Part shown: in pieces, positions 5,782 to 64,000 of the stretch
Layout: each line of letters begins with the position of its first letter
How positions within the stretch are numbered: the stretch's first letter is position 1
Assembly: GCF_019320115.1 (NCBI RefSeq)
Contig: NC_089582.1
Location: forward strand, 117,388,657-117,452,656
From: Miscanthus floridulus
Lineage: Eukaryota > Streptophyta > Magnoliopsida > Poales > Poaceae
Direction: 5' to 3'
DNA: 64,000 nt
Made by a program: the position numbers and the translations under genes
The notes under the pieces: generated by a model
What the model was told of the DNA's origin: nothing
Database searches by the model: none
The model's input: only the letters and a program-made list of their open reading frames with translations

Positions 5782-6579
5782 AGAAAGACCGATGCGATCC
5801 GAAGTCGCATCAGCACCATACCGGCCAGGACAGGGCACAGCAGGGATTACCGGCCACTGTGTCCAAACACTGTGACCACGATCAGCCGCCGTCAGCGCCT
5901 GGGACAGGATGTGGTGGGGGTTACTGGCCACTGTGTCCTACCACTGTGTCCACGATCAGCCGCCCGCTCAAGGCCTCGGCGCTGTACACCAAGGCCTCGG
6001 CACTATACATCAGGGCCTCGGCAATGTTGGGGTCCGCACCTGCCGAGACCCCCCCACCGCAGTACTAGCCTCGGCCCCAACCAAGTTTTGGCCTCGTGCA
6101 TAGTCCGTCCACAGCGGCTTATGGTCGCCGCCACGTCCACTCCGAGGCATTCCTGGGGTTTCTACGACGCACAGGACAGGAGAAAGACCGACGCGACCCG
6201 AAGTCGCATCAGCACCATACCGGCCAGGACAGGGCACGGCGGGGACTACCGGCCACTGTGTCCAAACATTGTGACCACGATAAGCCGCCGTCAGCACCTG
6301 GGACAGGATGTGGCGGGGGTTACTGGCCACTGTGTCCTACCACTGTGTCCACGATCAGCCGCTCGCTCAAGGCCTTAGCGCTGTACACCAAGGCCTCGGC
6401 ACTGTACATCAGGGCCTCGGCAATGTTGGGGTCCGCGCCTGCCGAGACCCCCCACCGCAGTACCAGCCTCGGCCCTGACCAAGTTTCGGCCTCGTGCATA
6501 GTCCATCCACAGCGGCTTATGGTCGCCGCCATGTCCACTCCGAGGCATTCCTGGGGCTTCCACGACGCACAGGACCTGA
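5782..6579 (+). repeat. two-copy tandem duplication, period ~399 bp, inside LTR U3
   Basis: 5782-6180 and 6181-~6579 align from AGAAAGACCGAYGCGAYCCG through CGACGCACAGGAC. Each copy contains ACCGGCCACTGTGTCC, ATCAGCCGC, several GGCCTCGGC motifs and GTCCACAGCGGCTTATGG. The copies differ by scattered transitions. The duplication may double upstream promoter elements. Confidence 0.85.
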
Positions 6580-6727
6580 TGGGACGACCACGCCGCCCCA
6601 GTACTCCAAGGATGGGTCGCTCCAACGACCACACCGCCACAGGAACAGGCCATAGGGCTTGGACATGCCGTCCCTGTTGGCACGACGCCGCATAGTAATA
6701 CATGTACTGCCCTTGTCCCCCCTTCAA

Positions 6728-6737: not shown

Positions 6738-7114
6738 AGAGGACTTAGGCCACTTAGAGAGGACGCCTAGAGAACACACACACACGCACACCTTCCAGCC
6801 GCTTGAGAGCAACGTCTCAGACGGCCCCACAACACCCTGCCGAGACCTAGGACAAGTTCCCTCTCTCCCTTAGCTTGTAACCCCCTACTACGAGCACTTC
6901 GGTGCAAGGAATACAAGTTCTATCCCTCAGACTGGACGTAGGGCGCCGATTGCCTGAACCAGTATAAACCTTGTGTCTCTTTGCATCACCATCCAGAATC
7001 GGGAGCACGCAGAACAAATTCACTAGTCGGTTGAGGACCCCCCGGTCCGAAACACCGACACAACGTATGCACTCGCTGCATAGCTCTATCACCTCTCTCA
7101 ACCACCTGATCTCG

Positions 7115-7768
7115 CTATAAGTTCATATCAGCCAACTGCTCCTGCAAGCTAGCTATAGCACGTGCCTGTCTCTTCTTCTGCTTTCTCCCCTTGAGCTTAT
7201 CCTGACCATGCAAGCCAGTCAAAGTCCAGTAGGTACTCTCGAGACCCTCATACGCTCTGATGGCAGCGAACATACCACTCATTGCCTGGTTGTCGCTAGC
7301 CTGTCCTTCAGCTGGACCTCTAACCAATGCACTTCCCTGAGGCTGAACCCAAATGGCATCACGAGGATCATCCCTAGGAAAAGTGCCAGCTAGAGCTGCT
7401 ACAAGCTCATTGGGAAATCTGCTCATAATGTCCCTGATGACACAGAAGGCTGCTCCCTCTGCACCCTCAGCTGGAGTGTGACCCTCAAACTCCAAATGCC
7501 AACCATCCCAATCTAGAGCATCACCGAGAGCAGGAACCGTGATCTCCACCACTGCGAGTCCATCCTCTGCTAACTGACTCTCATTCCAAGAGTACACCGG
7601 CTCTTGACCCTCTGGGTACCCCACATCATGGAGCACTCTCCAAAGCAAGGTTGGCATGCCAAACTCACTCAAGAAGGTGTCCGTGGTGCGGTGCTCCCTC
7701 AGGGCCAACGGACGTCGGGGTGCTCTTCCTCCGGTGGACTTACGGGCGGTCTACTTTGTGCAGGCCAT
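7115..7768 (-). pseudogene. ORF1 with histone H3-tail-like N-terminus, damaged by a stop at codon 6
   Basis: The ATG at 7768 follows TTGCTACAG directly, a good 3' splice site. The frame reads M-A-C-T-K-stop, then [16 protein letters not shown], then about 196 further residues to the TGA or TAG-type stop near 7115. Histone H3 begins [21 protein letters not shown], so positions 3, 4, 6-13, 15-17, 20 and 21 agree. Residue 2 (Arg in H3) is Cys and residue 5 is TAG (7753-7751), both explainable by C-to-T change. The body has an acidic/hydrophobic domain (WNESQLAEDG, DWDGWHLEFEG, FPRDDPRDAIWVQPQ) that I cannot assign, and ends in a basic stretch (KGRKQKKRQAR) and a short helix. The body is unrelated to the ORF at 54838; only the tail is shared. 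Confidence 0.75.
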
Positions 7769-8544
7769 CTGTAGCAAAAGTTCTTTTATTACCTTAGGGA
7801 AACATATTTTAGGTGATACAACTTTTATTAAAATGAGATAATCAATTTATAAGGGGAGGAATGCATGACATGAATGAAATGCACAAGTAACATGATGTAT
7901 GTACGTGCCGTACGTTCTCACAAACTTAGGAATAATAATTTCTAACGATGAATTCGGTGGCATACAAACGATCTCTCAAATACGTAGCTAATACGTTCTA
8001 CATGATAGCATTGTTATGTACCTGCAGAAGATTTATTTTAGCCCAATTCCCAATGAATGCATAAAAGTAGTAAAATTTTATCTACACGCTCTACACGAAT
8101 CCCTAGATACATGTACAACAGTAGTAACTACCCAAACCATCGTCCTATTGATGGCATCGCCTCAACAGACGGAAGACCCATACATGAGATACCTTTGTAA
8201 AACACGCGTAGAACATGTAATTACTCCAGCATCATATAAGCATTTACCCTAGATCGGCGGTGTATCCGATCATGCTCTCACAACTCACACTTACCGAGGC
8301 GTAGAGGCAAATGATCCATACATTACCACTCAAACAAGTGGCACTCATATAATAGCACGCCGTATGAGCGACAAAAGAGAAATATGATGCAAGAACCCCC
8401 AAGTCAGTATTTAATTAAGCCACCTAGAGTCCTTAACTGGGCATAGAGGATATGATCACTGGCACACTTTATATTTTGAAAATCACATTTTTCAAATGCC
8501 TTTTTGTTTTAAATACACTTATGAACAGTAACACGCTAAACCAT
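7769..8544 (-). other. 5' leader of the chromovirus-like element
   Basis: AT-rich and without a long frame. It runs from the primer-binding site to the ORF1 ATG. It ends in a pyrimidine-rich stretch and TTGCTACAG immediately before the ATG, so the last part may be the 3' end of an intron. Confidence 0.6.
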
Positions 8545-45160: not shown

Positions 45161-48100
45161 ATTGTAATATTTTGCAATCCTCGGTTTATTGGCTTTGATA
45201 TTTTTGAGAGCACGTAGCCGAAGGCAACTCAAGTCCTCTAAGTCATCTATCATAAGATTCTTGTAGACCTCGGCTGACAAATCATTTTGTAATGTAGCAT
45301 GCCTTGATCCAATCTGAACTTCCCTAGGAAGAACTGCATTATGGCCATACACAAGTTCATAAGGCGATGTTTTAATTGATCCATGATAGGCCATCCTATA
45401 TGCCCATAGTGCCTCATTAAGCGTTGAATGCTGCCATTTCCTTGGCTGTTCTTCAATCTTTTTCTTGATCAGCTTAATCATAATCTGATTGGACGCCTCT
45501 GCCTAGCCATTAGCCTAAGCATAGTAAGGAGAAGAATTTATTAGCTTGATTCCCATACTGGCAGCAAAATCTCTGAACTCCTCTGATGTGAACATTGTCC
45601 CCTGATCGTTAGTTATAGTTTGAGGAATCCCAAAATGATACACAATGTGCTCCTTGACAAAATCAACCATGTTCTTTGAGGTTACCGTCTTCAAAGGAAT
45701 TGCCTCAACCCATTTAGTGAAGTAATCTATTGCTACCAATATGAACTTATGTCCTTTGCTTGAGGGCAGAAAAATCTAGCCAATTAAATCAATTCCCCAA
45801 CCTTAAAACGGCCATGGCTTGATTATTGGATTCATGGCCAATGCAGGTGATTTCTAGATATTACCAAAACATTGATAATCCTAGCACCCCTTGTAATATT
45901 CAGAACAGTCTTCTAATATTGTTGGCCAGAAATATCCAGTTCTGTGAATAATCCACTTCATCTTATAAGCCGAATGATGAGCTCCACATATCCCTTCATG
46001 CACCTCACCCATCAACACCTTAGCTTCTTCTTGATTTAGGCATTTGAGCAATACTCCATCGACTATTTTGTAATACAGCTGATCATTCAGTAAAACATAC
46101 TTAGTCGATTTATACCTTAGCTTTCTGGTAACTTTCTATGATGGATTTCTAAGGTAGTTGGCTATTTCAACTCTCCAATCATCATTCGAGGTTTCACTAC
46201 TCAAGACTTCTTGAAATACCCGATATCTTGATGCACTTTGAGCTAGATGATTACCTCTTGGTTTTGTGCTCTCGGAATATGTTGGAAAGAGACATGAAGA
46301 AATTCTTTGAGCAACTTTTGGCACTCGTCATAGTATCCTTTCAAAGTATCTTCTTTGCACTCATATAGGCTAATCAACTGATTACTAATTAACTGTGAAT
46401 CCCCAAATACTTCAATTGATTTGGCCTTTACTTCATGAAGAAGTTGAAGTCCCTTAAGAATAGCTTCATGCTCTGCTTGGTTGTTGGTAATCACTGGTTC
46501 GGTTGGAAGAGCAAACTCAAAACTTGCCCCCCAAGGCAAAATAATAACAATACTAATGCCATCGCCTTGCTTGCATGATGATCTATCAAAGAATAACATC
46601 CAAGGTATCTTCTCTACATAGCCAATGCTTGGCTTATGATGCTGGGTGACAAAATAGGCCATTATTTGACCCTTGACTGCTTTAGCCGATTCATACTTCA
46701 AGTCAAATTTTGATAACGCGAGAATCCACTTTCCCACTCTCTCATTCAGTATTGGCATTGATAACATGTGCTTGATCACATCAGCCTTGGAAACAACCAT
46801 ACATTTGGCCGATAATAGGTATTGTCGCAACTTAGTGCAAGAGAAATATAAGCACAAGCATAACTTTTTGGTGGGAGAATATCTTGTCTCTGGATCTAGT
46901 AGTCTTCTACTCAGATAGAAAACAACTCTCTCTTTTCCTTCAAATTCTTGCATCAAGGTCGATCCAATCATCTTGTCATCCACCGATATGTACAACTTAA
47001 AAGGCTTACCTTGCTGAGGAGGGACCAACACAGGTGGACACTTCATGTATTCTTTTATTTCTTCAAACACCTTTTGTTGTATGTCACCCCACTTGAATTC
47101 TTGATCATTTTTCAACTTCAACAAGGGAGAAAACAACAGAATCTTTCTTGACAAATTTGAGATGAATCTTCTGAGGAAATTAATCTTACCAAGCAGAGAT
47201 TGCAACTCTATCTTAGTAGTCGGGGGAACTGCCTCATCAATTGTTTTTACGCTTTTCTGACCAACATCAATTTCTCTCTTGTGGACCATAAATCCCAAGA
47301 ATTGTCCAGCTGACACTCCAAAAGCACACTTATTAGGATTCATCTTTAGACCATGTTTTCTTGTGCATTCCAGAGTCTCTCGCAAATCAGCTAGGTGCTC
47401 CTTGTACCCTTTGGATTTTATCATCACATCATCGATGTAGATTTCAACAATCCTACCGATCAACTTATGAAAAATATAATTCATTGCCCTTTGATAAGTT
47501 GCATCGGCATTCTTCAGACCAAAGGTCATCACAACCCATTCGAATAAACCAATCACGCCGAGGCACCTAAAAGCAGTCTTTGCTATGTCTTCCTTAGCCA
47601 TGAAAATTTGGTTGTACCCTGCATTGCCATCCATAAAGCTAATAACCTTGTGCTTGGCTACTGCATCTACTAACATGTTAGCTATCGGCATCAATTAACC
47701 ATCCATGGGTGTGGTTTTGTTCAGATCCCTGAAATTGATGCAAACTCTTAATTTTCTATTTTTCTTGTACACAGGGACAACATTCGATATCCACTCTGTA
47801 TATCAGCACAGTCGGATAAACTTTGCCTCCAGTAACCTTTTAGTCTCCTTTTTGATATCATCAAGCACGTTTGGGTTGAATCTCCTTGGAGCCTGTTTAA
47901 ACGATCGATATCCAGGTTTGATTGGTAACCGATGTTCAACAATTGACCGGTCTAGGCTAGGCATCTCATAGTATTCCCAAGCAAAATAGTTTTTAAATTC
48001 CTTTAACAAATCAACTAACTCTCTCTTATACTCAGGGTCCAACTTGGCACTTACATACATCGGCCTAGGTCTATCTCTAGAACCAATGTCTACTTCTTCC

Positions 48101-48838
48101 AATTCATCGGCCAACGTGAAACCATGTCCCAGTTTGCCATCTGTACCATCTATTGGATTATCCATTAAGACAAATTTTCAAAGCCGACTACTTGGATCGG
48201 CTATTGGCTTTCATCATTGACTCTAATGAAATCTCCTTCCCATAATTTGCCAGAAAACCATTCAAAATCTCTTAGTTCCCAAAAGATTGGATCGGCTGTT
48301 GCGATGCTCACAGATTCATCAGCGCGAACCATCTCGACATCATCTCCATACCATTGATTCAAACACTGATACATGGTTGATGGTACACAATAGTTCGGAT
48401 GAATCCAATCATGACCAAGGAGCAAACTGTATGACCCTTTTACATCGATGATGAAGAATGTGGTGAGCATAGTCTTACTCCTGATTGTTAGTCCGATGTT
48501 TATTGCCCCTGGGTCTTAGATGCATTACCTCCAAAATCCTTAAGCGTCATATCAGTCTCCATCAGATCTCCTGGTCCTTTGCTAAGTTTACGAAAAGTGG
48601 TGGAAGGCATAAGATTGACAGAAGCACCTCTGTCCACCAACATCTTGTTCATCGGCTTCCCATCAACAAAACCTTTTATATATAAAGCCTTTAAGTGGCG
48701 ATGCTTGACTGGTTTATCAAATATTTCTTGTACAACCATCAACTTGGCAACTATCTCTCCGTACTCCAATTCATCAAAATCCGAATAAACTTCTTGATCT
48801 GCTGGAGCTTTGAATTCTAATGGCAACAGAAAAGCCAT
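45134..48838 (-). pseudogene. pol: Tat pol: protease, RT, RNase H, archaeal-type RNase H, integrase (broken)
   Basis: Protease at ~48838-48500, with VDRGASVNLMP where D-S/G-G is usual, so its active-site turn is altered. RT N-terminal part at 48165-47803 (PGYRSFKQAPRRFNP). RT core, connection RNase H and second RNase H in one open stretch 47694-46243: YIDD at about 47439-47428, first RNase H from ~47000 and second from ~46600 (WMLFFDRSSCKQGDG, NNQAEHEAILKGLQ, EVFGDSQL). Integrase zinc region at ~45960-45760, core at 45739-45515 with Asp (IDYFTKWVEA) and Asp (TNDQGTMF); Glu follows after an in-frame TAG in GQAEASN. C-terminus at 45481-45134. At least five stops or frame changes separate the pieces. 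Together these enzymes copy and integrate the element; this copy cannot. Confidence 0.85.
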
Positions 48839-49583: not shown

Positions 49584-52433
49584 TGTAACACCCTAGGTGT
49601 TTAGGCTTCCACTAATTGCATGTCATTTCATAAACATGTGCATTAGCTATGTCATCATGTCATTATCTTTGAAACATACATATGCAACATTTTAAATTGT
49701 ATGTGTTTCATGCTTGATTTCTTAGAGTGGTAGTAGTGCAACATGTGAATGTAACATGAAACTCTCATACATGGAAACATGGCAATATGGTAAGTAATGT
49801 GGCAATTATAAAATTGACAACAAGGTATTGAAACATATGAAACATTTCATTACAACATATGATTGAATTGTTTGTTTTAGTTGTTTTATTCCATGTGATC
49901 ATTAGAAGTGGTATGACAAGTTTGTAAAGTGGTTGATCATGGTCTAATGCACCTTAACTACACTTAGAGTAATTGTTTGGACATTGTTCATGTAGATCAA
50001 AATGACCAACATGCCCTCAAGTGCAAGTTTGACTTGAATTGACCCTTGGAGTGTCATTGTTTGACTGTTTAAAAAGTCCAACTTAGAAACCTTGCATGGC
50101 TGTGCACTCTTTACAAAAGTTGTAGATAATTTATCAAGGAACAAAAGTTGTTTTATGGTCAACTCATGAAAATGTCTAGAACGTGGTCAAACATGGCCCA
50201 CAAGTCAGAATTTCATGCTAATCAACACTGAAAAATCTTGCTAAGTCATTGATGACATTTCAGTGTGATCGAGCCATCTTTGGCTTGTTGTAACTTCTGA
50301 TCCATGGCAAATTAGGTGATGGTTCTTGAAAGTAAATTGCAGATGGATGTTTGGTCTACATTTGTCATGAACACTGTTTTTGCAAACAAGCAACGGATTA
50401 GCCAGTTTACCGCGAGGAAGTCACGCTGTCAGGCTGCTCGCCCCGACTGAATGGAAGCTACAGTGGTCGCGTTTTTCAGAAAACGCCGGACACGTGTGCG
50501 CCGCGCGTCGACGGTCGGCTGACCGCGCTGGCCACGCGCTGTGCGCCTCCTGGCGTCGCAGACGCGCCTTGAAGCCACCCCGCGCCTGCCGACGCCCTCG
50601 CTAGTCCTTTTTCATTTCTTCGCTCGCCACTGCAAGCGCAGCCGCAAGCAGCCACTCCGCCATAGCTCCGCCGTCGTAGAGCTTGCTCACCGCTGCAACT
50701 ACCCGCACTACGCCTTCACCGAAGCTCCGTCGTGTTCGTCTGGACCTTCCCCACCTTCTAGCTGAGCCAATCGCGCTGTAGGTGAGGACCTTGGCCAGTT
50801 TTTCCGACACCGTCGCCATGGCCGTACCCCGCCGGAGCTAGCGCTCGTCATGGCCGGCCGCCTCCGCTCCCTTCCTGCCTCTTCTAGTGCGCGCATGGGG
50901 ACCCTTAGGAGCTGTAGTGCCTACCTCGTAGATGTAGTCACTAGATTCGCCGCCGTTGAGCCGGAACACGGCCGCGCGCCGCCGTGCGCCATGGCCGAGC
51001 CGCCGAGCTCCATGGCCGACGCACCTAGAGACCGGTAGGGTTTGGGGTTAGGGTATCAATCGACGCGTGAGGTTGAGGAGGTCACGTAGGTGCCGTCATC
51101 GTTGCCGAAGAAACCGCCGTCGGCGAGCTCCGCCGGATTTCCGTCATGCGAGCCGCGTCCCCTATTTCGGTCTCGCTGACGCGCGGGTCCGCCCTGTCAG
51201 CCGCTGACGCGCGCGGCGGGAGCACGCTGGGCCGCGCCGTCGTCTTGGGCCACGACTGCGTACTCGCGGGCCGCCGTCCCTTCGGGCCGGCCCAACAGCA
51301 GTGAAGCTTCATTTTTGTTTTTGTTTTTCTTTATTTTATAGATTTACATATGAATTTGTAAAATGTATATCTCAAGTTCTAGGGATCTAAATGATGTGCT
51401 TCAATTTTTGTAGTGTTCTTTGTGAAGTCTAGTATTTAATAAAAATATTATATGAGCTCATGTTTTAGAAAAATTGGATGAATTAAATAGGAGATTGAAA
51501 TGTGTTTTTAGAAGCATGCAAACTTGTTTGAATTTTATCTTGAGTTTCTGTGGTCCAAAAATTATGAAATTTTGTGGGTCATCTATTTTTGATTATTAGA
51601 GTATCTGGTTAAAATTTCAGAGCTAGTGCATGTGTAGTTTTTAAGTTATAGAATTTCCTTTTATTAATGGATGTTTCTTGGGTGAATTTTCATAATTTTT
51701 CTATAGATCCAGTAAAGGTAAAATTTGGTGGGTACTATTCTTATGCTAGAATGATGCTAGGAAAAATGTGAAATCTATTGCTTGACACTTTTCATTAGGA
51801 TTTCTTAATTATGCCATTTTAAGCCATTATGACTTATCATTTTATGTAGACTGTTATACTTACTCAATGGCTTTGAAATTTTTATGGTAGTCTATGTGAA
51901 GCATGAGATAGCTACTGTAATTTTTGTAGATTTTTCTGAACAGTTTTACTATATATTGCTTTAATCACCTAATTAACTAGATAAATTAGAAAAGGGTATT
52001 AAATAATTTATTTAGAAGTTGACACTATACTTTCTGATGTTTATTAGGTATGCAAAACAAGTTGGTAAACTTGGTTTGATCAAAGTATGCTTTTGCACAA
52101 TCATTAAATAATTAAGTTACTACTTGTTGCATATGAAGCTTTAGCTGTTATTTTAAGTATGTCTTTACTATTCTAAGTTCATGGTACTGTTCCTAGGTGT
52201 TAGGCCTTTAACTGAAGATGAGCATCTTTATCTTAGGTTATGCAAATTAGGTAAGTTGCTCTTGTTATTTAAGTTAAGTTGGATACAAGCTTAAAGTGAT
52301 TTGAATAGAGCTAATTACTCGGTAAACTGAGTGTCCAGTGATGCTTTCGTAAACACTCACTGTGATTCATTCATCATGCATCATGTCATTCTTATGCATT
52401 CATGATATTTATATTGTGCATCGGCATGCAATA

Positions 52434-52612
52434 GGTGTACCGGAAGGAGTAACCCTGCTGGAATTCGAGGAGCTGAGCGAGCAGCAGCAGCCGACACCGG
52501 AGATTCAGGAGGAGCAGCCTTCAGGAGAAGTGCCAGACTGAGGTCGCCGTTGAGTGCCCTGACCACCGTCCTTGCAACTTTGTGAAAGGCAAGCCCCGGA
52601 GCATATTAAGCC
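52434..52612 (+). pseudogene. LTR-internal coding-like exon (5' LTR copy), frameshifted
   Basis: Same as the entry at 63085 but with an extra T at 52539 that creates a TGA after GEVPD. Otherwise nearly identical. Confidence 0.5.
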
Positions 52613-53600
52613 TCCTATTTTCCGAACTGCAGTTACAGTATTATTATTATATATATTGTTGCATTAAGTTTAGGTGTTGGATGCAAACACTTGCTGCATT
52701 GGTTACCCATTCCTTGTCCAGATATTGTTACCCTGAATCCTATATAGCTCAGGCTCGAGTAGTGCTTAGCCCTGCTTAAACTCGGTAGAAGTCGGGTGAT
52801 TTCCTGTCACCTGCGAGATATAGGATGATACATGTGGCACGGTTGGCTATATTTGCTATCGTGGAAAAGAACCAGTCTTAATTTGAAATGAAGACCGGAC
52901 GGAGGCTTGCCGGTTTGCAGTGACTCCGTTTGTGTCGATTAAGGACTGAATCTTGGAGCCTTTCCTGTTCATGTTGAACGCATGCCTCTCTCTTAGTTGG
53001 CCGGCCTGAAGACCGACCGCGAAGCCGAGTAGCTCACCTCAGGCCGGGAGTCGATAAGTATAAAGTGCGCCTCGGAAGGGAGCCGTAGGCGTGAGTCCAA
53101 GGGCAGGTGATTTAAAAGTCCTGGTCATCCTGGCAGAAGGGTAATCCCTGAGAGTGCTGGCGCTGATCGAACCCACGAATTTGGTTCCTGAGATGTCCCA
53201 AAGGTGACCCACGGCTACTCTTGCAAAGTATGCCAGGGTGAGGGTTAGGAATACCCCCTCAGCTGAGTTGTAATTCGATTCGAATCAGCCGTCTCTCCCG
53301 GTTAGTGAGAACTTGACGGGCTTATCTCCAATGTAGATACACTTAATAACTTAATGGTTCGGAAATGATGATATGATGATGATAGCCTTATTAGACCTGC
53401 TATGGTTAATACTGTTTGCTCCTAATAAGTGAGTGCTCTAGTACAGGTGCTAATCTAGTGGACAGGTAAATAATGATAAGCTTGATGCTAAGTTTAAATT
53501 GGTTACTATAATCTTAAGTTCTTTTATGCAACTGTGTCAAGCTAGCCCACCTAAAAGCCTTGCATGATCCTTGGTGTCTTTTATTTCTGATTTTCGTCGG

Positions 53601-53655
53601 GTAAGTCTAGCTGAGTACCTTCTTGTACTCAGGGTTTATTTCCCACCTGTTGCAG
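53601..53655 (+). promoter_or_regulatory. conserved LTR hairpin block (first copy)
   Basis: GTAAGTCTAG to TTGCAG, 55 bp, with CTGAGTAC-CTTCTT-GTACTCAG at 53611-53632. It is 431-485 bp from the LTR end, as in the two other LTRs. At 55 nt it is shorter than usual plant introns, so splicing is doubtful; the stem is the more conserved part. Confidence 0.7.
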
Positions 53656-54088
53656 ATGACCAGTTCTACTTTGGTTGCTGCAAGTACTGCCTTCTCCCAG
53701 CTGGGGATGAAGACTAGACCGTTGGGCGCGGTTTCTACTAGTTCTCGTACCTGATAATGCTTTTGTGGGACATGACTCTGATCTTGGCAATGTATTTGAA
53801 AACTATGATGTTTTGTACTAAACTATTTTGCTTCCGCACACTCAAACTTGGTTTGTAATATTTATTTGAACTCTGATGGATGTAATCCGAATGCTACTTA
53901 TGAAATGTTGTAACGGATGATGTGTGGTGTTGAATTATTACGATCTTGGTATGTATGTCGAGAGTTGGTTGAAATCCTTCGCGATTTCCGGACTACCGGG
54001 ATTATGGGAGCTTAAGTACAGGAATTTGATCGCTTCGGTGATTGTTTTTGTACTTACGTTCTTATAATTTGGTCGGTTCTGTTACAGC

Positions 54089-54100
54089 TGGTATCGGAGC
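54089..54100 (+). other. primer-binding site, initiator Met-tRNA type
   Basis: TGGTATCGGAGC two bases after the LTR; 11 of 12 match TGGTATCAGAGC. Confidence 0.9.
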
Positions 54101-54837
54101 AAGATTTGACACTAAACACATCATTTGTGTATTTAAAACAAAAGTATTTGTGAAAATCCTTAATTAAATACTAAGTATTGCCAGTGGTCATATCCTGTAT
54201 GCCCAAATAAGGACTCTTAGGTGGCTTATTAAAGTACTAACTTGGGGGTTCTTACTTGTTCTGTTTCGTCGTCCATACGGCGTGCTATTGTATGGATGCC
54301 ATCCGCTTGGGTGGTAATGTATGGATCAAAATACCTCTACGCTCTGGTAAGTGTGAGTTGTGAGAGCATGACCGTCCAACCGTCGGTCTAGGGGAGAGTA
54401 GTTGTGGTTGCTCGCATACTTACATGTTAATCATGTATCTATGAGAGTACTTAATTATGGGTATCTCTGATGGGTAGCTGTGATACTAGAGTATATGCAT
54501 CAGGGGATGTATGTATGAAAGTATTTAGTTTACTGCTTGTTTCTATGCTTTTTGGGAAATTATTGGGCTGAAATGAAATTTCCTGCAGGTACACTAACAA
54601 CGTATCGTTGTAGATCGACTAGCTACCGTATACGAGAGAACGTATGTATGCCACCGTATATTTCGCTAGCCTTTAAATTTTTCTAGGTTTGTGAGGACGT
54701 ACGGGTCGTGCATGCATCATGTTCAAACATACATGGCATTTCTTGCATTACTCCCTCCTTTAAATTGATGGTCCTGAATAATTAAATTTCGTATCCCTTA
54801 AATGATTCTCCCCTTACGTTGTAACTTTTTGCTACAG
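54101..54837 (+). other. 5' leader between primer-binding site and ORF1
   Basis: No long frame. It ends with a pyrimidine-rich stretch and TTTTTGCTACAG directly before the ATG at 54838, a good 3' splice site. Candidate donors include GGTAAGTG at about 54348. Confidence 0.6.
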
Positions 54838-55422
54838 ATGGCGCGCACGAAACGCACTGCTCGCAAGTCCGCTGGAGGTAGGGCGCCTCGTCACCGTTTA
54901 GCTCCTCGTGAGCCCTGTCCTGAGCCTACTGAGGTGGAAAGGCTGAGGGCAGAGCTGACTCAGGTAACTGCTGAAAGGACTGTAGTTCAGCAGCGTTTGG
55001 AGCAAGTCACGCAGGAACGGGATCAAGAAAACCTGGAAGTTCAGAGGTTGACAATTGCTCACCGCATCTGTGAGCGTATGTTGGTTCACATGCTGAACCA
55101 ACGGAATGAAGCCTGGCACGAGGAGAATGTGTTGAGAGCGAGGCAGATTGAGCTAGAGCAGCAGTTGGCAGCTGCAGAAGAGTACAATGACAATCTCCAT
55201 GAGGAGGTTCACCTACTGCATAATCAACTTCACCCTATCCTGCCACCAGATGATGAGAATGAGATGGGTTCTGGTGTCATCATGGCTGAAGGTGATGATG
55301 ACATGGAAGTCAATGGACCTGAGTACGCTCCACCTGATGAGGAGGAAGATGAGGAGTTAGAGCCTCCTAGTGATGAAGATGGAGGAGAAATCTTCGACAC
55401 CGACTCCGAGGACGATGCGTAG
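54838..55422 (+). CDS. ORF1: histone H3-tail mimic, coiled coil, acidic tail
   Basis: 194 residues, intact. Start at 54838 chosen because it begins MARTKRTARKSAGGRAPR, which matches the mature H3 N-terminus at 16 of the first 21 positions; H3 residues R2, T3, K4, T6, A7, R8, K9, S10, G12, G13, A15, P16, R17, L20 and A21 are kept, while Q5, T11, K14, K18 and Q19 differ. Residues ~31-131 are heptad-rich (EVERLRAELTQ, RARQIELEQQLAAAEE) and probably form a coiled coil. Residues 138-194 contain 27 Asp/Glu in 57, like acidic tails of histone chaperones. It resembles no enzyme. It lies upstream of gag in a different frame, 413 bp apart. Plausible roles, all inferred: binding H3-tail readers or writers, or the element's own chromodomain. 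Nothing beyond residue 21 resembles H3. Confidence 0.8.
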   Translation: MARTKRTARKSAGGRAPRHRLAPREPCPEPTEVERLRAELTQVTAERTVVQQRLEQVTQERDQENLEVQRLTIAHRICERMLVHMLNQRNEAWHEENVLRARQIELEQQLAAAEEYNDNLHEEVHLLHNQLHPILPPDDENEMGSGVIMAEGDDDMEVNGPEYAPPDEEEDEELEPPSDEDGGEIFDTDSEDDA

Positions 55423-55835: not shown

Positions 55836-58800
55836 ATGGCTTACAATCTTCGTCGTGGTCGTAACCTTGGAGATGAGGAGCAAACACCTCCTCCACCACC
55901 ACCCACACCAGCTGAGCTAATGCAGATAGTTGTGGAAAGTCAGCGCATGCTAGCTGAGGCTATGCGCCAGATGGCAAACCGTGAGGACCGGCATGTCCGC
56001 CAGGGACCCGAGCCGAACCAGTACAGTAGTTTTAAGGACTTCATGGACACGAAGCCTCCTATCTTTCATGAGGCCGAAGAACCCTTACAAGCAGACGAAT
56101 GGTTGAGCACGATAGAGCAAAGATTTGGATTGCTCCGTTTGACTGAAAGCATGAAGGCTACGTATGCAGGGCACCAGCTCCAAGGCCCTGCAGGCATTTG
56201 GTGGACCCATCATAGGACCACCTTCCCTGCTAACATTGAGATCATCTGGAACCAGTTCCAGGCAGCCTTCAGGGGACACTTTATCCCTCCTGGTCTCATG
56301 GCCATCAAGCATACTGAGTTTATGAAACTCACTCAAGGCAACAGGAGTCTCAATGAGTACCTCCAGGCATTCAACAACTTGGCAAGATATGCTCCTGAGT
56401 TCGTCGATACTGACACCAAGAGAATAGCTAGCTTCAAGAGGGGACTTTCCCCAAAACTGATGAAGTCAATGGGCAACTGTAAGTGTGTCACCTTCAATGA
56501 GTTTATCAGTGACACTCTGACTCAGGAGAACAATGACAAGATTTATGCTGCTTCCAAGAACCGGAAAAGGAACTTTGAGGCTGGTGCTTCCCAGTCCAAG
56601 GCTCCAATGGTATCTAAGGCCCTGTACCATCCACCCAATGCTAATGTCCGGTACCGCCCACCTCTGAAGAAGAACCAAGCTAAAACCGGTTTCCGCAAGG
56701 GGTATACAATTTCCTTGCCGAAGAATACCTCAGGGCAGGGTAGCTCCAATGTTCCACCAGCAAACAGGCTGTGCTGGAACTATAACCAGCCTGGTCATTG
56801 GGCAAATAGATGTCCCCATCCTCCCAAGAATGCTCAAGGAAACGTCCGTCAGAGGTGTGTTCACTATACTACGGTGGAGGAAATTCCTGCTGGTGAAGTG
56901 GTCACCGCTGGTAAGTTCCTTGTTAATGATCACCCTGCAGTTGTGCTCTTTGATTCTGGTGCTTCACATTCCTTTGTGAGTTCAACTTTTGCATCTAAGC
57001 ATCAGTTGAATGTGATTACAATTGTCAAGGGGGGTTATTGTATTAGTGCTGCTAGGAATAATATCATGACTAACCAAGTAGTTAAAGATGTAAAGATAGA
57101 GATCGGGGATCGAGAGTTCCTCGTGGATCTTGTAGTTCTACTGGGGGTAGGAATCGATGTAATCCTAGGAATGAAGTGGATGAGCGGGAATGGAGTGTTG
57201 ATCGATACATCAACCCGTGTGGTTATGTTGAGGGATCCTGTGGATAAGAAAGGTTTTCTAGTGCAGTTACCTCGTGATATCACTATCCACAGTACAGCCA
57301 ATGCTACCTTAGCCAAAGCCATTAAGGATCTACCGGTTGTCTGTGAGTTTCCAGATGTCTTTCCTGATGACTTGCCTGGATTACCTCCGGACCGTGATGT
57401 AGAATTCAAGATAGAGCTCATTCCGGGTATGGCTCCCATTTCTCGAAGGCCCTATAGAATGCCGCTCAATGAGTTGGCTGAGCTGAAGAGTCAGTTGAAT
57501 GAGCTATTGAAGAAAGGGTTGATTCGACCTAGTTCTTCTCCTTGGGGTTGTCCGGCTATATTTGTGAAGAAGAAGGACGAGTCTCTACGCATGTGTGTGG
57601 ATTATCGTCCCCTAAACGCTGTTACTATCAAGAACAAGTACCCTCTTCCTCGCATCGATATTCTATTTGATCAACTCTCCAAAGCTAAGGTATTCTCCAA
57701 GATCGATTTAAGGTCTGGCTACCATCAGATCAAAATTCGTCCTGAAGATATACCTAAGACAGCTTTCTCTACTCGTTATGGCTTGTTCGAATACCTCATC
57801 ATGTCATTTGGGTTGACAAATGCTCCGGCACACTTTATGTACCTGATGAATTCTGTATTCATGCCGGAATTGGACAAATTTGTCGTCGTGTTTATTGATG
57901 ATATCCTAGTATATTCTCAGAATGAAGAAGAGCATGTTGACCATCTGAGAATTGTTTTAACTCGGTTACGTGACAACCAGCTTTATGCTAAGTTCAGCAA
58001 GTGCGAGTTCTGGTTGAACAAGATACCTTTTCTTGGTCATGTATTATCTGGTGATGGAATTTCGGTTGACCCTACTAAGGTGCAAGAAGTTCTTGAGTGG
58101 AAGGCACCTACTACGGTCACAGAAGTCCGAAGTTTTCTAGGATTGGCTGGTTATTATCGTCGCTTTATCCCGGATTTCTCAAAGATCGCCAAGCCCATGA
58201 CTCGACTACTGCAAAAGGATGAGAAGTTTGAGTGGACTCTGAAGTGTGAAGAGGCTTTCCACACTTTGCGGACCTTACTAACCTCTGCTCCTGTATTGGC
58301 ACAACCCAACATCGAGAAGCCTTTCGATGTCTACTGTGACGCATGTGGCACCGGTTTGGGGTGTGTTCTTATGCAGGAAGGCCGAGTAATTGCTTATGCT
58401 TCGCGCCAGCTCCGAAAGCATGAAGTCAACTATCCTACCCATGACTTAGAGCTAGCCGCAGTTGTTCATGCCCTGAAGATCTGGAGACATTACTTGCTGG
58501 GTAATGTATGCAACATCTATACTGACCATAAAAGCCTCAAGTACATTTTTACTCAACCCGAGTTGAATATGCGTCAACGACGATGGTTAGAATTGATCAA
58601 AGACTACAACCTTCAAGTGCACTACCACCCTGGTAAGGCAAATGTGGTTGCTGATGCCTTAAGCAGAAAGGCCCATTGCAATTCCTTAGTTAGTGAAGAC
58701 TTTCATCTGGCACACCTCCTTCATCCTGTAGTACTCCACAATATCACTGTGGATTGCTCTCTTAGAAGTCGAATTATCGAGCTCCAGAAGACGGATGTGG

Positions 58801-60239
58801 GTGTATTTCACATCAAGCGGAAAATGAAAGAGAAAGAGACCAAGCACTTTAAAGTCGATGACAAGGGAATTTTCTGGTTTAATGATAGACTGGTGGTACC
58901 CAAAGATAAAGAACTTAGAAATCAAATTATGGATGAAGCCCATTCTTCAAAATTGTCCATCCATCCTGGTAGCAGTAAAATGTATCAAGATCTCAAGCTG
59001 TATTATTGGTGGACCAAGATGAAGAAAGAAATCACAGCTTATGTGGCAAGGTGTGATAACTGTTGCAGAGTCAAGGCTATTCACATAAGGCCCGGACTAT
59101 TGCAGCCACTATCTATTCCTGGCTGAAAGTGGGAAGAAATTAGTATGGATTTTATTGTTGGATTACCCACTACCAAAAAGGGTTGTGATTCCATCTGGGT
59201 TATCGTAGATCGTCTAACTAAATCTGCTCACTTTATTCCGGTCAAGTCTACCTATCATCCTCACAATTATGCTGAGATTTATTTTCAACAAGTGGTACGT
59301 CTCCATGGTGTACCCAAATCCATTGTTTCTGATAGAGGACCTCAATTCACGGCTCGTTTTTGGGAGTGCTTACATCAGAATCTTGGCACTCATCTAATTC
59401 GTAGTTCTGCCTATCATCCGCAAACATCAGGACAGACTGAGCGTGTTAATCAAATTCTTGAAGACATGCTTAGAGCTTGTCTTATCTCTTGCAAAGGCTC
59501 TTGGGAAGACTGGTTACCTCTCGCGGAATTCTCGTATAACAACAGTTATCAAGAAAGTATCAAAATGGCTCCTTTTGAAGCTCTTTATGGCCGCAAGTGT
59601 AGAACTCCTTTGAACTGGGTGGAACCCGGAGAAAGAAGATTCTATGGTATTGATTTTGTAAAAGAAGCCGAAGAGCAAGTCTGAACTATACAGAAGAATA
59701 TGACTGCCGCTCAGGCCAGACAAAAGAGCTATGCTGACAAGAGAAGAAAACCTATTGAGTTTGAAGTAGGTGACCATGTTTATCTGAAGGTATCCCCTAT
59801 GAAAGGAGTCAAGCGTTTTGGAATTAAAAGGAAGCTTGAGCCTCGATATGTTGGACCCTACCGCATTATCGAGAAAAGTGGAAGAGTAGCCTATAAACTC
59901 GATTTACCCTGTGAAATGGGCGCTATATTTCCGGTATTCCATGTGTCCCAGCTGAAGAAGTGTCTTTGTATTCCCGAGGAAAGAATAGCAACAAGGAAAG
60001 TCAACTTGAAATCTGATCTTTCTTATGAGGAAAAGCCCGTGCAAGTTCTGGATACTCAAGAAAGAGTGACTCGTACACGAGTGGTTAAGTTATACAAGGT
60101 AGTTTGGAGTAATCATAGTGAACGGGATGCAACCTGGGAGCGGGAAGATTATTTAAAAGAAAACTATCCAGCTTTCTATATTAAATGGTACGCTTTCCAA
60201 ATCTCGGGACAAGATTTTTCTAAGGGGGGAGGGCTGTAA
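55836..60239 (+). pseudogene. gag-pol: chromovirus Gag-Pol polyprotein with two UGA stops
   Basis: One frame, 1467 codons. Gag domain codons ~60-240 ([28 protein letters not shown]). Zinc knuckle at codon 313 has Tyr in place of the second Cys (C-W-N-Y, TAT at 56781). Protease DSGASHSFV at codon 373. RT with FIDD at codons 686-689. RNase H with [18 protein letters not shown] and YTDHKSLK. Then an HX..HX..CX2C zinc region (ARCDNCCRV), TGA at 59124 (codon 1097), integrase core with Asp (DFIVGL, VDRLTKS), Asp (SDRGPQFTARF) and Glu (GQTERVNQ), TGA at 59682 (codon 1283), and a chromodomain at about codons 1403-1446 (TRTRVVKLYKVVWSN, ATWEREDYL). Both stops are one transition from sense codons. The chromodomain steers integration to marked chromatin in this clade. 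Probably mobilised only in trans, if at all. Confidence 0.92.
60221..60234 (+). other. polypurine tract of the chromovirus
   Basis: TAAGGGGGGAGGGC ends directly before the TG of the 3' LTR. It overlaps the last codons of the polyprotein (SKGGGL) and its stop lies inside the LTR. Confidence 0.85.
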
Positions 60240-63200
60240 CACCCTAGGTGTTTAGGCTTCCACTAATTGCATGTCATTTCATAAACATGTGCATTAGCTA
60301 TGTCATCATGTCATTATCTTTGAAACATACATATGCAACATTTTAAATTATATGTGTTTCATGCTTGATTTCTTAGAGTGGTAGTAGTGCAACATGTGAA
60401 TGTAACATGAAACTCTCATACATGGAAACATGGCAATATGGTAAGTAATGTGGCAATTATAAAATTGACAACAAGGTATTGAAACATATGAAACATTTCA
60501 TTACAACATATGATTGAATTGTTTGTTTTAGTTGTTTTATTCCATGTGATCATTAGAAGTGGTATGACAAGTTTGTAAAGTGGTTGATCATGGTCTAATG
60601 CACCTTAACTACACTTAGAGTAATTGTTTGGACATTGTTCATGTAGATCAAAATGACCAAAATGCCCTCAAGTGCAAGTTTGACTTGAATTGACCCTTGG
60701 AGTGTCATTGTTTGACTATTTAAAAAGTCCAACTTAGAAACCTTGCATGGCTGTGCACTCTTTACAAAAGTTGTAGATAATTTATCAAGGAACAAAAGTT
60801 GTTTTATGGTCAACTCATGAAAATGTCTAGAACATGGTCAAACATGGCCCACAAGTCAGAATTTCATGCTAATCAACACTGAAAAATCTTGCTAAGTCAT
60901 TGATGACATTTCAGTGTGATCGAGCCATCTTTGGCTTGTTGTAACTTCTGATCCATGGCAAATTAGGTGATGGTTCTTGAAAGTAAATTGCAGATGGATG
61001 TTTGGTCTACATTTGTCATGAACACTGTTTTTGCAAACAAGCAACGGATTAGCCAGTTTTCCGTGAGGAAGTCACGCTGTCAGGCTGCTCGCCCCGACTG
61101 AATGGAAGCTACAGTGGTCGTGTTTTTCAGAAAACGCCGGACGCGTGTGCTCCGCGCGTCGACGGTCGGCTGACCGCGCTAGCCACGCGCCATGCGTCTC
61201 CTGGCGTCGCAGATGCGCCTTGAAGCCACCCCGTGCCTACCGACGCCCTCGCCAGTCCTTTTTCATTTCTCCGCTCGCCACTGCAAGCGCAGCCGCAAGC
61301 AGCCACTCCGCCATAGCTCCGCCATCATAGAGCTTGCTCACCGCTGCAACTACCCGCACTACGCCTTCACCGAAGCTCTGTCGTGTTCGTTTGGACCTTC
61401 CCCACCTTCTAGCTGAGCCAATCGCGCTGTAGGTGAGGACCTTGGCCAGTTTTTCCGACACCGTCGCCATGGCCGTACCCCACCGGAGCTAGCGCTCGTC
61501 GTGGCCAGCCGCCTCCGCTCCCTTCCTGCCTCTTCTAGTGCGCGCATGGGGACCCTTAGGAGCTGTAGTGCCTACCTCGTAGATGTAGTCACTGGATTCG
61601 CCGCCGTTGAGCCGGAACACGGCCGCGCGCCGCCGTGCGCCATGGCCGAGCCGCCGAGCTCCATGGCCGACGCACCTAGAGACCGGTAGGGTTTGGGGTT
61701 AGGGTATCAATCGACGCACGAGGTTGAGGAGGTCACGTAGGTGCCGTCATCGTTGCCGAAGAAACCGCCGTCGGCGAGCTCCGCCGGATTTCCGTCATGC
61801 GAGCCGCGTCCCCTGTTTCGGTCTCGCTGACGCGTGGGTCCGCCCTGTCAGCCGCTGACACGCGCGGCGGGAGCACGCTGGGCCGCGCCGTCGTCTTGGG
61901 CCGCGACTGCGTACTCGCGGGCCGCCGTCCCTTCGGGCCGGCCCAACAGCAGTGAAGCTTCATTTTTGTTTTTGTTTTTCTTTATTTTACAGATTTACAT
62001 ATGAATTTGTAAAATGTATATCTCAAGTTCTAGGGATCTAAATGATGTGCTTCAATTTTTGTAGTGTTCTTTGTGAAGTCTAGTATTTAATAAAAATATT
62101 ATATGAGCTCATGTTTTAGAAAAATTGGATGAATTAAATAGGAGTTTGAAATGTGTTTTTAGAAGCATGCAAACTTGTTTGAATTTTATCTTAAGTTTCT
62201 GTGGTCCAAAAATTATGAAATTTTGTGGGTCATCTATTTTTGATTATTAGAGTATCTGGTCAAAATTTCAGAGCTAGTGCATGTGTAGTTTTTAAGTTAT
62301 AGAATTTCCTTTTATTAATGGATGTTTCTTGGGTGAATTTTCATAATTTTTCTATAGATCCAGTAAAGGTAAAATTTGGTGGGTACTATTCTTATGCTAG
62401 AATGATGCTAGGAAAAATGTGAAATCTGTTGCTTGACACTTTTCATTAGGATTTCTTAATTATGCCATTTTAAGCCATTATGCCTTATCATTTTTATGTA
62501 GACTGTTATACTTACTCAATGGCTTTGAAATTTTTATGGTAGTCTATGTGAAGCATGAGATAGCTACTGTAATTTTTGTAGATTTTTTTGAACAGTTTTA
62601 CTATATATTGCTTTAATCACCTAATTAACTAGATAAATTAGAAAAGGGTATTAAATAATTTATTTAGAAGTTGACACTATACTTTCTGATGTTTATTAGG
62701 TATGCAAAACAAGTTGGTAAACTTGGTTTGATCAAAGTATGCTTTTGCACAATCATTAAATAATTAAGTTACTACTTGTTGCATATGAAGCTTTAGCTGT
62801 TATTTTAAGTATGTCTTTACTATTCTAAGTTCATGGTACTGTTCCTAGGTGTTAGGCCTTTAACTGAAGATGAGCATCTTTATCTTAGGTTATGCAAATT
62901 AGGTAAGTTGCTCTTGTTATTTAAGTTAAGTTGGATACAAGCTTAAAGTGATTTGAATAGAGCTAATTACTCGGTAAACGAGTGTCCAGTGATGCTTTCG
63001 TAAACACTCACTGTGATTCATTCATCATGCATCATGTCATTCTTATGCATTCATGATATTTATATTGTGCATCGGCATGCAATAGGTGTACCGGAAGGAG
63101 TAACCCTGCTGGAATTCGAGGAGCCGAGCGAGCAGCAGCAGCCGACACCGGAGATTCAGGAGGAGCAGCCTTCAGGAGAAGTGCCAGACGAGGTCGCCGT

Positions 63201-64000
63201 TGAGTGCCTTGACCACCGTCCTTGCAACTTTGTGAAAGGCAAGCCCCGGAGCATATTAAGCCTCCTATTTTCCAAACTGCAGTTACAGTATTATTATTAT
63301 ATATATTGTTGCATTAAGTTTAGGTGTTGGATGCAAACACTTGCTGCATTGGTTACCCATTCCTTGTCCAGATATTGTTACCCTGAATCCTATATAGCTC
63401 AGGCTCGAGTAGTGCTTAGCCCTACTTAAACTCGGTAGAAGTCGGGTGATTTCCTGTCACCTGCGAGATATAGGATGATACATGTGGCACGGTTGGCTAT
63501 ATTTGCTATCGTGGAAAAGAACCAGTCTTAATTTGAAATGAAGACCGGACGGAGGCTTGCCGGTTTGCAGTGACTCCGTCTGTGTCGATTAAGGACTGAA
63601 TCTTGGAGCCTTTCCTGTTCATGTTGAACGCATGCCTCTCTCTTAGTTGGCCGGCCTGAAGACCGACCGCGAAGCCGAGTAGCTCACCTCAGGCCGGGAG
63701 TCGATAAGTATAAAGTGCGCCTCGGAAGGGAGCCGTAGGCGTGAGTCCAAGGGCAGGTGATTTAAAAGTCCTGGTCGTCCTGGCAGAAGGGTAATCCCTG
63801 AGAGTGCTGGCGCTGATCGAACCCGCGAATTTGGTTCCTGAGATGTCCCAAAGGTGACCCACGGCTACTCTTGCAAAGTATGCCAGGGTGAGGGTTAGGA
63901 ATACCCCCTCAGCTGAGTTGTAATTCGATTCGAATCGCCGTCTCTCCCGGTTAGTGAGAACTTGACGGGCTTATCTCCAATGTAGATACACTTAATAACT
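60235..64000 (+). repeat. 3' LTR of the chromovirus, cut by window edge
   Basis: Collinear with 49584-53349 at an offset of 10651. The last ~740 bp, with the hairpin block and LTR end, lie outside. Substitutions relative to the 5' LTR are mostly transitions and more than half fall in the GC-rich block (61050-61960). Confidence 0.95.
63085..63429 (+). CDS. LTR-internal coding-like exon, acidic with GKPRSI motif
   Basis: After CATGCAATAG (acceptor-like) the frame reads GVPEGVTLLEFEEPSEQQQP, then an acidic Glu/Pro/Gln-rich stretch, then ECLDHRPCNFVKGKPRSI, staying open to 63429. The same C-terminal motif (ECPDHRPSSFERGKPRSI) is in the otherwise diverged LTR at 8559-12454, at the same distance from the LTR end and in the same splice phase. 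Many nucleotide differences between them are at third positions (CCT/CCC, GAC/GAT, CAC/CAT). The upstream exon, perhaps in the GC-rich block, is not identified, so translation is unproven. Confidence 0.45.
   Translation, partial: GVPEGVTLLEFEEPSEQQQPTPEIQEEQPSGEVPDEVAVECLDHRPCNFVKGKPRSILSLLFSKLQLQYYYYIYCCIKFRCWMQTLAALVTHSLSRYCYPESYIAQARVVLSPT

Follow-up and report, generated by a model that had tools for sequence, protein, structure and literature searches.

An open reading frame of a grass retrotransposon begins with a copy of the N-terminal tail of histone H3, and very probably this tail derives from a captured host H3 exon and has been conserved as a mimic. The frame lies at positions 54838..55422 (+) of a 64,000-nt stretch of the Miscanthus floridulus genome (GCF_019320115.1, NC_089582.1, 117,388,657-117,452,656, forward strand; hereafter the window). 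It is an ORF0, the known 5' extra open reading frame of Tekay-type chromoviruses, the class being assigned by layout, and its tail would represent a new form of histone mimicry on this already known class of ORFs. As far as literature searches show, no transposon has been described before that mimics chromatin by means of a histone exon taken from its host, and this one would be the first. Judged from sequence comparisons, retention of the captured exon as a silencing decoy or adaptor would be the best overall explanation, and we favour it by a modest degree of belief.

The translation of this ORF0 (type A) has 194 residues, no internal stop and the N-terminus MARTKRTARKSAGGRAPRHRLAPRE. Sequence match, exon comparison and conservation delimit an H3-tail module of 24 codons (54838..54909, +), followed by what by eye appear to be a coiled coil (about residues 35-135) and an acidic end. 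Counting the Met, 15 of the first 18 residues are identical to H3. When type A was searched against PDB sequences with phmmer, the best 60 of 134 matches were histone H3 or H3-like chains, including Cse4 and CENP-A chimeras, and the alignments of these 60 extend from residue 1 or 2 to 20-25 with one exception (1-37). By this comparison, the N-terminal match of residues ~1-24 is to H3 only, among the PDB matches listed. The best E value was 3e-4, and that for P0146, a protein of the second ORF0 type described below, was 1.1e-6. No Pfam family reached its cut-off in type A, and no histone family was among the Pfam matches of ORF0, the likeness to H3 being restricted to the tail. The initial annotation, a retrotransposon ORF that opens with a copy of the H3 N-terminus and then leaves H3 for a coiled coil and acidic end, therefore describes the frame accurately.

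The retrotransposon that carries type A in the window (element A) is bounded by a 5' LTR of about 4.5 kb (49584..54086, +), defined by LTR-LTR alignment, and a 3' LTR (60235..64000, +) that ends at the window edge. The LTRs are 98.67% identical across 3,770 aligned bases (5' LTR against 60234-64000) and, read by eye, start with TGTAACACCC / TGTAACA and end with TGTTACA. A primer binding site, TGGTATCGGAGC (54089..54100, +), adjoins the 5' LTR and presumably resembles the end of initiator-Met tRNA. The gag-pol region (55836..60239, +) was recognized by its reading frames, an ATG at 55836 and Pfam matches to gag and protease. Two in-frame stops (59124-59126 and 59682-59684) interrupt the integrase part, while ORF0, which sits between primer site and gag on the same strand, is open. 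A putative chromodomain is located at the integrase end (60045..60173, +), where the matches are weak (Pfam Chromo, 16.9 bits against a cut-off of 25.1; Clr4 chromodomain, E 1.5e-4). Element A was assigned to the Tekay type because its layout matches that of RIRE3, RIRE8 and Retrosat2, and its LTRs of about 4.5 kb exceed the 3 kb of the Tekay-type criterion. Membership in the Retrosat2/RIRE8 family proper was rejected, the LTR ends being TGTCACACCC...GGGCGTGACA there and TGTAACACCC...TGTTACA here. Further upstream in the window, open stretches on the minus strand (47803-48838) resemble, by eye, the protease and the start of the reverse transcriptase of another Ty3/gypsy element.

In the accessible text of the work on RIRE3, RIRE8, Retrosat2, FRetro3, ZMsat2 and Sorsat2, ORF0 is a rapidly diverging 5' extra ORF of the Tekay clade with no assigned function (PMC3485330). 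The frame described here is like these in being a separate ORF between 5' LTR and gag in a grass Ty3/gypsy element with LTRs above 3 kb (PMC3485330). It differs, as far as the two can be compared by description, in its H3 tail, since the same text predicts hydrolase-like enzymes and leaves histones unmentioned (PMC3485330).

A second ORF0, of a longer type, was located by tblastn of the type A ORF across the window (7115..7768, -). Stops at codons 6 and 218 disrupt it. P0127 is 92% identical, over its 180 aa, to this copy, which has the same H3-like start as type A, followed by a largely different body. Its H3-tail module (7697..7768, -), delimited by a codon table, is 76% identical over residues 1-25, and residues 36-125 (7394..7663, -), placed by alignment to P0127, form a putative central domain that resembles a double-stranded RNA-binding domain (dsRBD). 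Intact longer-type copies elsewhere in the genome start with MARTKQTARKSTGGRAPR, which corresponds to H3 residues 1-17 with K14 alone changed, so that A1-G13 is a run of 13 consecutive H3 residues. All four copies fetched are 329 aa long, with the N-terminus MARTKQTARKSTGGRAPRRPLALREHRTTDTFLSEFG and K14 replaced by R. The coil of the window copy breaks off near 7050 (the last P0128 match in the region ends at 7052) and other sequence follows (~6800-7050, -), probably an insertion. Not far from it, a near-identical frame of about 90 residues occurs twice in a row (5784-6700), suggesting a local tandem duplication.

The two ORF0 types share both ends. Their tails are identical at 20 of 25 positions (E 6e-9) and their coils and acidic ends are 34% identical over 119 columns (E 4e-18), so that type A resembles a version of the longer protein from which the central domain is missing. 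The database protein P0213 combines the tail and the start of the central domain with a type-A-like coil and acidic end, and an internal deletion like that in P0213 may have produced type A. The central domain was modelled as a dsRBD in a predicted structure; this likeness is a fold comparison of a predicted model and does not establish a function. The RNA-contacting lysines of dsRBDs lie at the start of helix 2 in a KKxAK motif. At this position 4/4 fetched longer-type copies have GRTPAEGAEGAAF and are without these lysines. A basic cluster, KLKGKKQKK, occupies positions 191-199 of the longer type.

The tail is a regular part of both types in the genome. Residue 1 was included in 149 of the 150 scored matches of type A (P0001; 12,101 candidates) and in all 150 of those of the longer type (P0127; 9,015 candidates), counts that describe the best-matching copies, as only the best candidates were scored; 111 and 129 of these matches, respectively, are free of internal stops. 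Among 215 sequences, consisting of the window ORF and 214 database proteins (the 120 listed out of 218, 5 more and all 89 relatives from a further search), 47 have the tail, many others begin downstream of it and four have another start. Within the 89, 14 possess the tail, the four with another start have the same body behind a short N-terminus of unrelated sequence (MDVPASP and similar), and the remaining sequences begin further down than the tail. A scan of viral contigs for ORF0 relatives gave 65 pattern matches and no relative. Chance resemblance, or capture of H3 by the window copy alone, could be suspected from the single-sequence H3 match of only 24 bits, but both were rejected and now have a negligible probability, as the tail occurs in both ORF0 types and in almost every scored copy and A1-G13 is unbroken in the longer type. 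Absence of the tail from other copies of the family and an H3 5'-end capture in one copy had been named beforehand as findings that would speak against the initial annotation; the tail is present in other copies as well as in other families.

Relatives without the tail exist side by side with these elements. Genome matches to P0196 and P0195 (150 scored each) are tail-less, 50/50 loci read having no H3 tail before the domain, and mostly start with MATPVGCENFL, MAAPALPPRSDTFL or similar. Such tail-less ORF0s are abundant in the same genome as the tail-bearing ones, from which it follows that elements can be successful without it. In a tree of the dsRBD-like domain (64 rows), a branch supported at 100/100 separates 9 of the 10 tail-bearing rows from the 54 tail-less rows and P0196; two changes are required, and the arbitrary root gives no direction for gain versus loss of the tail. 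P0196 itself is a database protein in which the H3 tail and linker lie between the leader and the central domain of an otherwise tail-less family. Its tail was reached by 0/150 scored genome matches and is represented by one member sequence, and P0196 may have arisen by recombination or be a chimera of the assembly.

These relatives bear on the main rival to the decoy, according to which the tail serves the element itself in assembly or targeting, as a ligand, perhaps methylated by the host, either of the chromodomain of its integrase or of host factors involved in directing integration. The chromodomain at the integrase end of element A fits this idea, as do the accessible parts of two studies in which type II chromodomains are without part of the aromatic cage and without an identified partner (PMC6317226, PMC3350952). 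The chromodomain match is weak, however, and the tail-less relatives presumably keep a chromodomain. We regard a tail that serves the element as unlikely, though it is the strongest of the alternatives.

Conservation of the tail is concentrated in particular residues. The start Met of the 47 tail-bearing sequences is followed by Ala1 (46/47), Arg2 (39/47), Thr3 (45/47) and Lys4 (43/47). Further identity with H3 is found for S10 and L20 in all 47, K9, G13 and P16 in 46, A21 in 45, T6, A7 and A15 in 44, G12 in 41, R8 in 39, R17 in 31, Q19 in 19, T11 in 18 and Q5 in 8 sequences, and for K14, K18, T22 and K23 in none. K14 is replaced by R in 45, K18 by H or R in 46 and K23 by R or H in 46 sequences; R2 and R8 are each changed in 8/47 and K4 in 4/47. 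Since the 47 sequences are related and not independent, the loss of K14, K18 and K23 may be one founder event and not the outcome of repeated selection.

Comparison of six pairs of body lineages revealed an identity of 76-93% in the tail, 35-82% in the linker and 42-61% in the body. Over codons 1-18, the window ORF0 and the intact longer-type copies differ with pS 0.76 and pN 0.064, and the window's own pair of ORF0s gives pS 0.85 and pN 0.054 over 17 codons. Among 30 recent type-A copies, which were picked as best protein matches, the pN/pS of the tail is 0.35, a value that rests on very few changes and is the highest in the ORF (0.08-0.14 elsewhere), so that the claim of selection rests on the comparison between the types. 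A passenger without function, conserved by shared descent and recent amplification alone, is conceivable in that related copies inflate the counts and the type-A copies are close to each other; the large synonymous excess over amino-acid change between the two types and a tail identity above the body identity between lineages nevertheless make it very unlikely. Somewhat more probable, though still improbable, is a generic role as a basic, nuclear-targeting or RNA-binding start, or as a stable N-terminus, that involves no H3 reader or writer. The stretch is indeed very basic, and type A has no other nuclear signal that is obvious by eye. Such a role, however, has no need for A1, T3, T6, S10, G13, P16 and L20, which are kept in 44-47 of 47 sequences with synonymous sites near saturation, and the longer type has a basic cluster of its own.

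The extent of the tail points to its source. A search of the same genome for H3 (150 of 3,861 candidates scored) gave 97 matches, among them 21 stop-free one-piece matches over the whole of H3 and at least seven split genes whose first piece comprises residues 1-25 or 1-26. These split genes, which we take to be H3.3 genes, have a first coding exon that runs from the ATG to the K23 codon and is followed by GT in 6/6 fetched. The sequence before their ATG ends in ...atgcag in 2/6 (L089, L091), in ...gactag in 2/6 and without an AG in 2/6. The mean BLOSUM score of the tails to H3 (n=47) is positive at 22 of the 24 codons of this exon, the exceptions being 18 and 22, and at only 4 of the next 16 (26, 35, 36 and 38). 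The fading of the resemblance at the end of the first coding exon, after K23, points to an ancient exon capture, although residues 18 and 22 fit poorly and the point at which the match stops is uncertain by one or two codons. Start and extent of the tail, as aligned, agree with one whole host H3 coding exon with this soft end. No more than 5-11 of 18 third positions in the tail agree with those of nine host H3 genes, which implies that the capture is old and that no donor gene can be named. A single capture for both ORF0 types appears favoured over independent captures because of the shared K14R, the changed K18 and K23, a similar leader and an identical stretch of 16 bases from acceptor to ATG; the nucleotides of the two tails are compatible with independent captures too.

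The leader contains a candidate intron in each of the two elements of the window. That of element A (54347..54837, +) has the donor CTG/GTAAGT and ends directly before the ORF0 ATG, and that of the second element (7769..8294, -) has the same donor and acceptor strings. The donor string GGTAAGTGTGAG is found 491-498 bases upstream of the ORF0 ATG in 26/30 type-A copies and in element B, and the acceptor TTTTGCTACAG directly precedes the ORF0 ATG in 30/30 type-A copies. Directly before the gag ATG, TTTTGCAG is present in element A and in 17/30 copies, the exact string not being found in the other 13. From these strings we infer that the leader may be spliced alternatively to ORF0 and to gag. The donor string occurs in 0/29 and 8/19 usable tail-less loci of two sets, and the leader intron is hence not universal. 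An AG likewise precedes the start of the tail-less ORF0s, and the acceptor may thus be older than the tail.

These observations can be assembled into a mechanism, along the lines of the suggestion in the initial annotation that the tail could recruit or titrate K4/K9 enzymes and readers. An H3 exon would have been captured once, long ago, probably together with its splice acceptor. The RNA for ORF0 would be spliced at the acceptor immediately before the ATG, and removal of the Met would expose Ala1, as at the N-terminus of H3. Several H3-like tails could be brought together by the coiled coil, and the protein might enter the nucleus, in the longer type by means of its KLKGKKQKK cluster. There it could serve as a decoy or adaptor whose H3 tail keeps H3 readers and writers of the host occupied, candidate targets being VIM/UHRF1-type PHD-TTD modules, SUVH/KYP SET domains and the chromodomains of CMT3 or LHP1. 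Without K14, K18 and K23, ORF0 could dock on such proteins yet not become an acceptor of acetyl or ubiquitin, and silencing of the element would be blunted. In the longer type, the dsRBD-like domain without RNA-binding lysines may add a protein contact to Dicer or DRB proteins. That H3 readers or writers are really engaged by ORF0 seems reasonably probable from the residues kept, and a net anti-silencing effect, although possible, is rather less so. More tentative is the full combination, in which a captured H3.3-type first coding exon that keeps R2, K4, K9 and S10 without the downstream acetyl and ubiquitin acceptors would be displayed as a silencing decoy on a coiled-coil scaffold, with a Dicer-partner-like dsRBD in one type, and in which this tail may also be the partner that the elements' type II chromodomains have so far lacked.

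Histone mimics are known from other systems. Influenza NS1 has a short H3-like stretch of few residues at its C-terminus, and differs in this from ORF0, whose mimic is an exon-sized N-terminus. VANC, the product of a VANDAL transposon, acts by sequence-specific DNA binding, and to our knowledge has no likeness to H3. It is nevertheless, according to the accessible text of a recent study, an extra transposon ORF that protects against silencing (PMC11728184). Viral histones (CvBV-H4, marseillevirus doublets and others), some of which are described to act via the N-terminal tail in the text available to us (PMC9145170), retain a histone fold that ORF0 does not have. In the part of the literature on Shugoshin that could be consulted, the Sgo1 protein has an H3-like N-terminal tail, bound like the H3 tail by the BIR domain of Survivin, and a coiled coil, but it is a host protein and its likeness is confined to the first four residues (AKER) (PMC9253516).

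The closest parallel is the PCNA-associated factor PAF15. Its H3-like free N-terminus is recognised by the H3 reader UHRF1 and is ubiquitylated, and a double K-to-R mutation abolishes ubiquitylation and chromatin loading, as stated in the accessible sections of PMC7060239. PAF15 is, however, a host protein that needs its acceptor lysines, and ORF0 has none of them (0/47 for K14, K18 and K23). By this parallel, the presence of R or H at K14, K18 and K23 would amount to docking without acceptors.

The proteins of 5' additional ORFs (aORFs) of Tekay elements from sunflower, maize and sorghum are predicted to be nuclear, and those from maize and sorghum were likened to DRBM proteins and to modulation of RNA silencing, in the available text of PMC11728184. 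The same text reports no H3 tail on these ORFs and describes the sunflower protein as unrelated in sequence to the grass ones (PMC11728184). The word histone is absent from the accessible text of PMC3485330, PMC7264820 and PMC11728184 in connection with such extra ORFs, the names ORF0, Tekay and Retrosat are absent from the review PMC7264820, and histone is mentioned once, for chromodomains, in the text seen of PMC6317226. In agreement with the initial annotation, which knew of no such tail in plant retrotransposons, no description was found in the open-licence literature; older papers on ORF0, RIRE3 or RIRE8 could mention it. Because of the H3 tail, a synthetic peptide could directly probe both the function of ORF0 and the partner of type II chromodomains (as described in the part of PMC6317226 available). 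The ORF0 families, which have thousands of candidate matches in a single grass genome, also provide a natural experiment that asks which H3 residues are sufficient for recognition once the sites of acetylation and ubiquitylation are missing.

Beside the tail, ORF0 as a whole is a lysine desert. Type A contains K4 and K9 only in 28/30 copies (P0001, L001-L030), and the lysines of the longer type are confined to K4, K9 and the 191-199 cluster in 4/4 copies (L081-L084). This scarcity could limit ubiquitylation of the ORF0 protein itself. The gag of element A contains 31 K and 30 R in 500 aa; the probability of zero K among the 13 basic body residues of type A is ~1e-4, in a test that was chosen after seeing the data.
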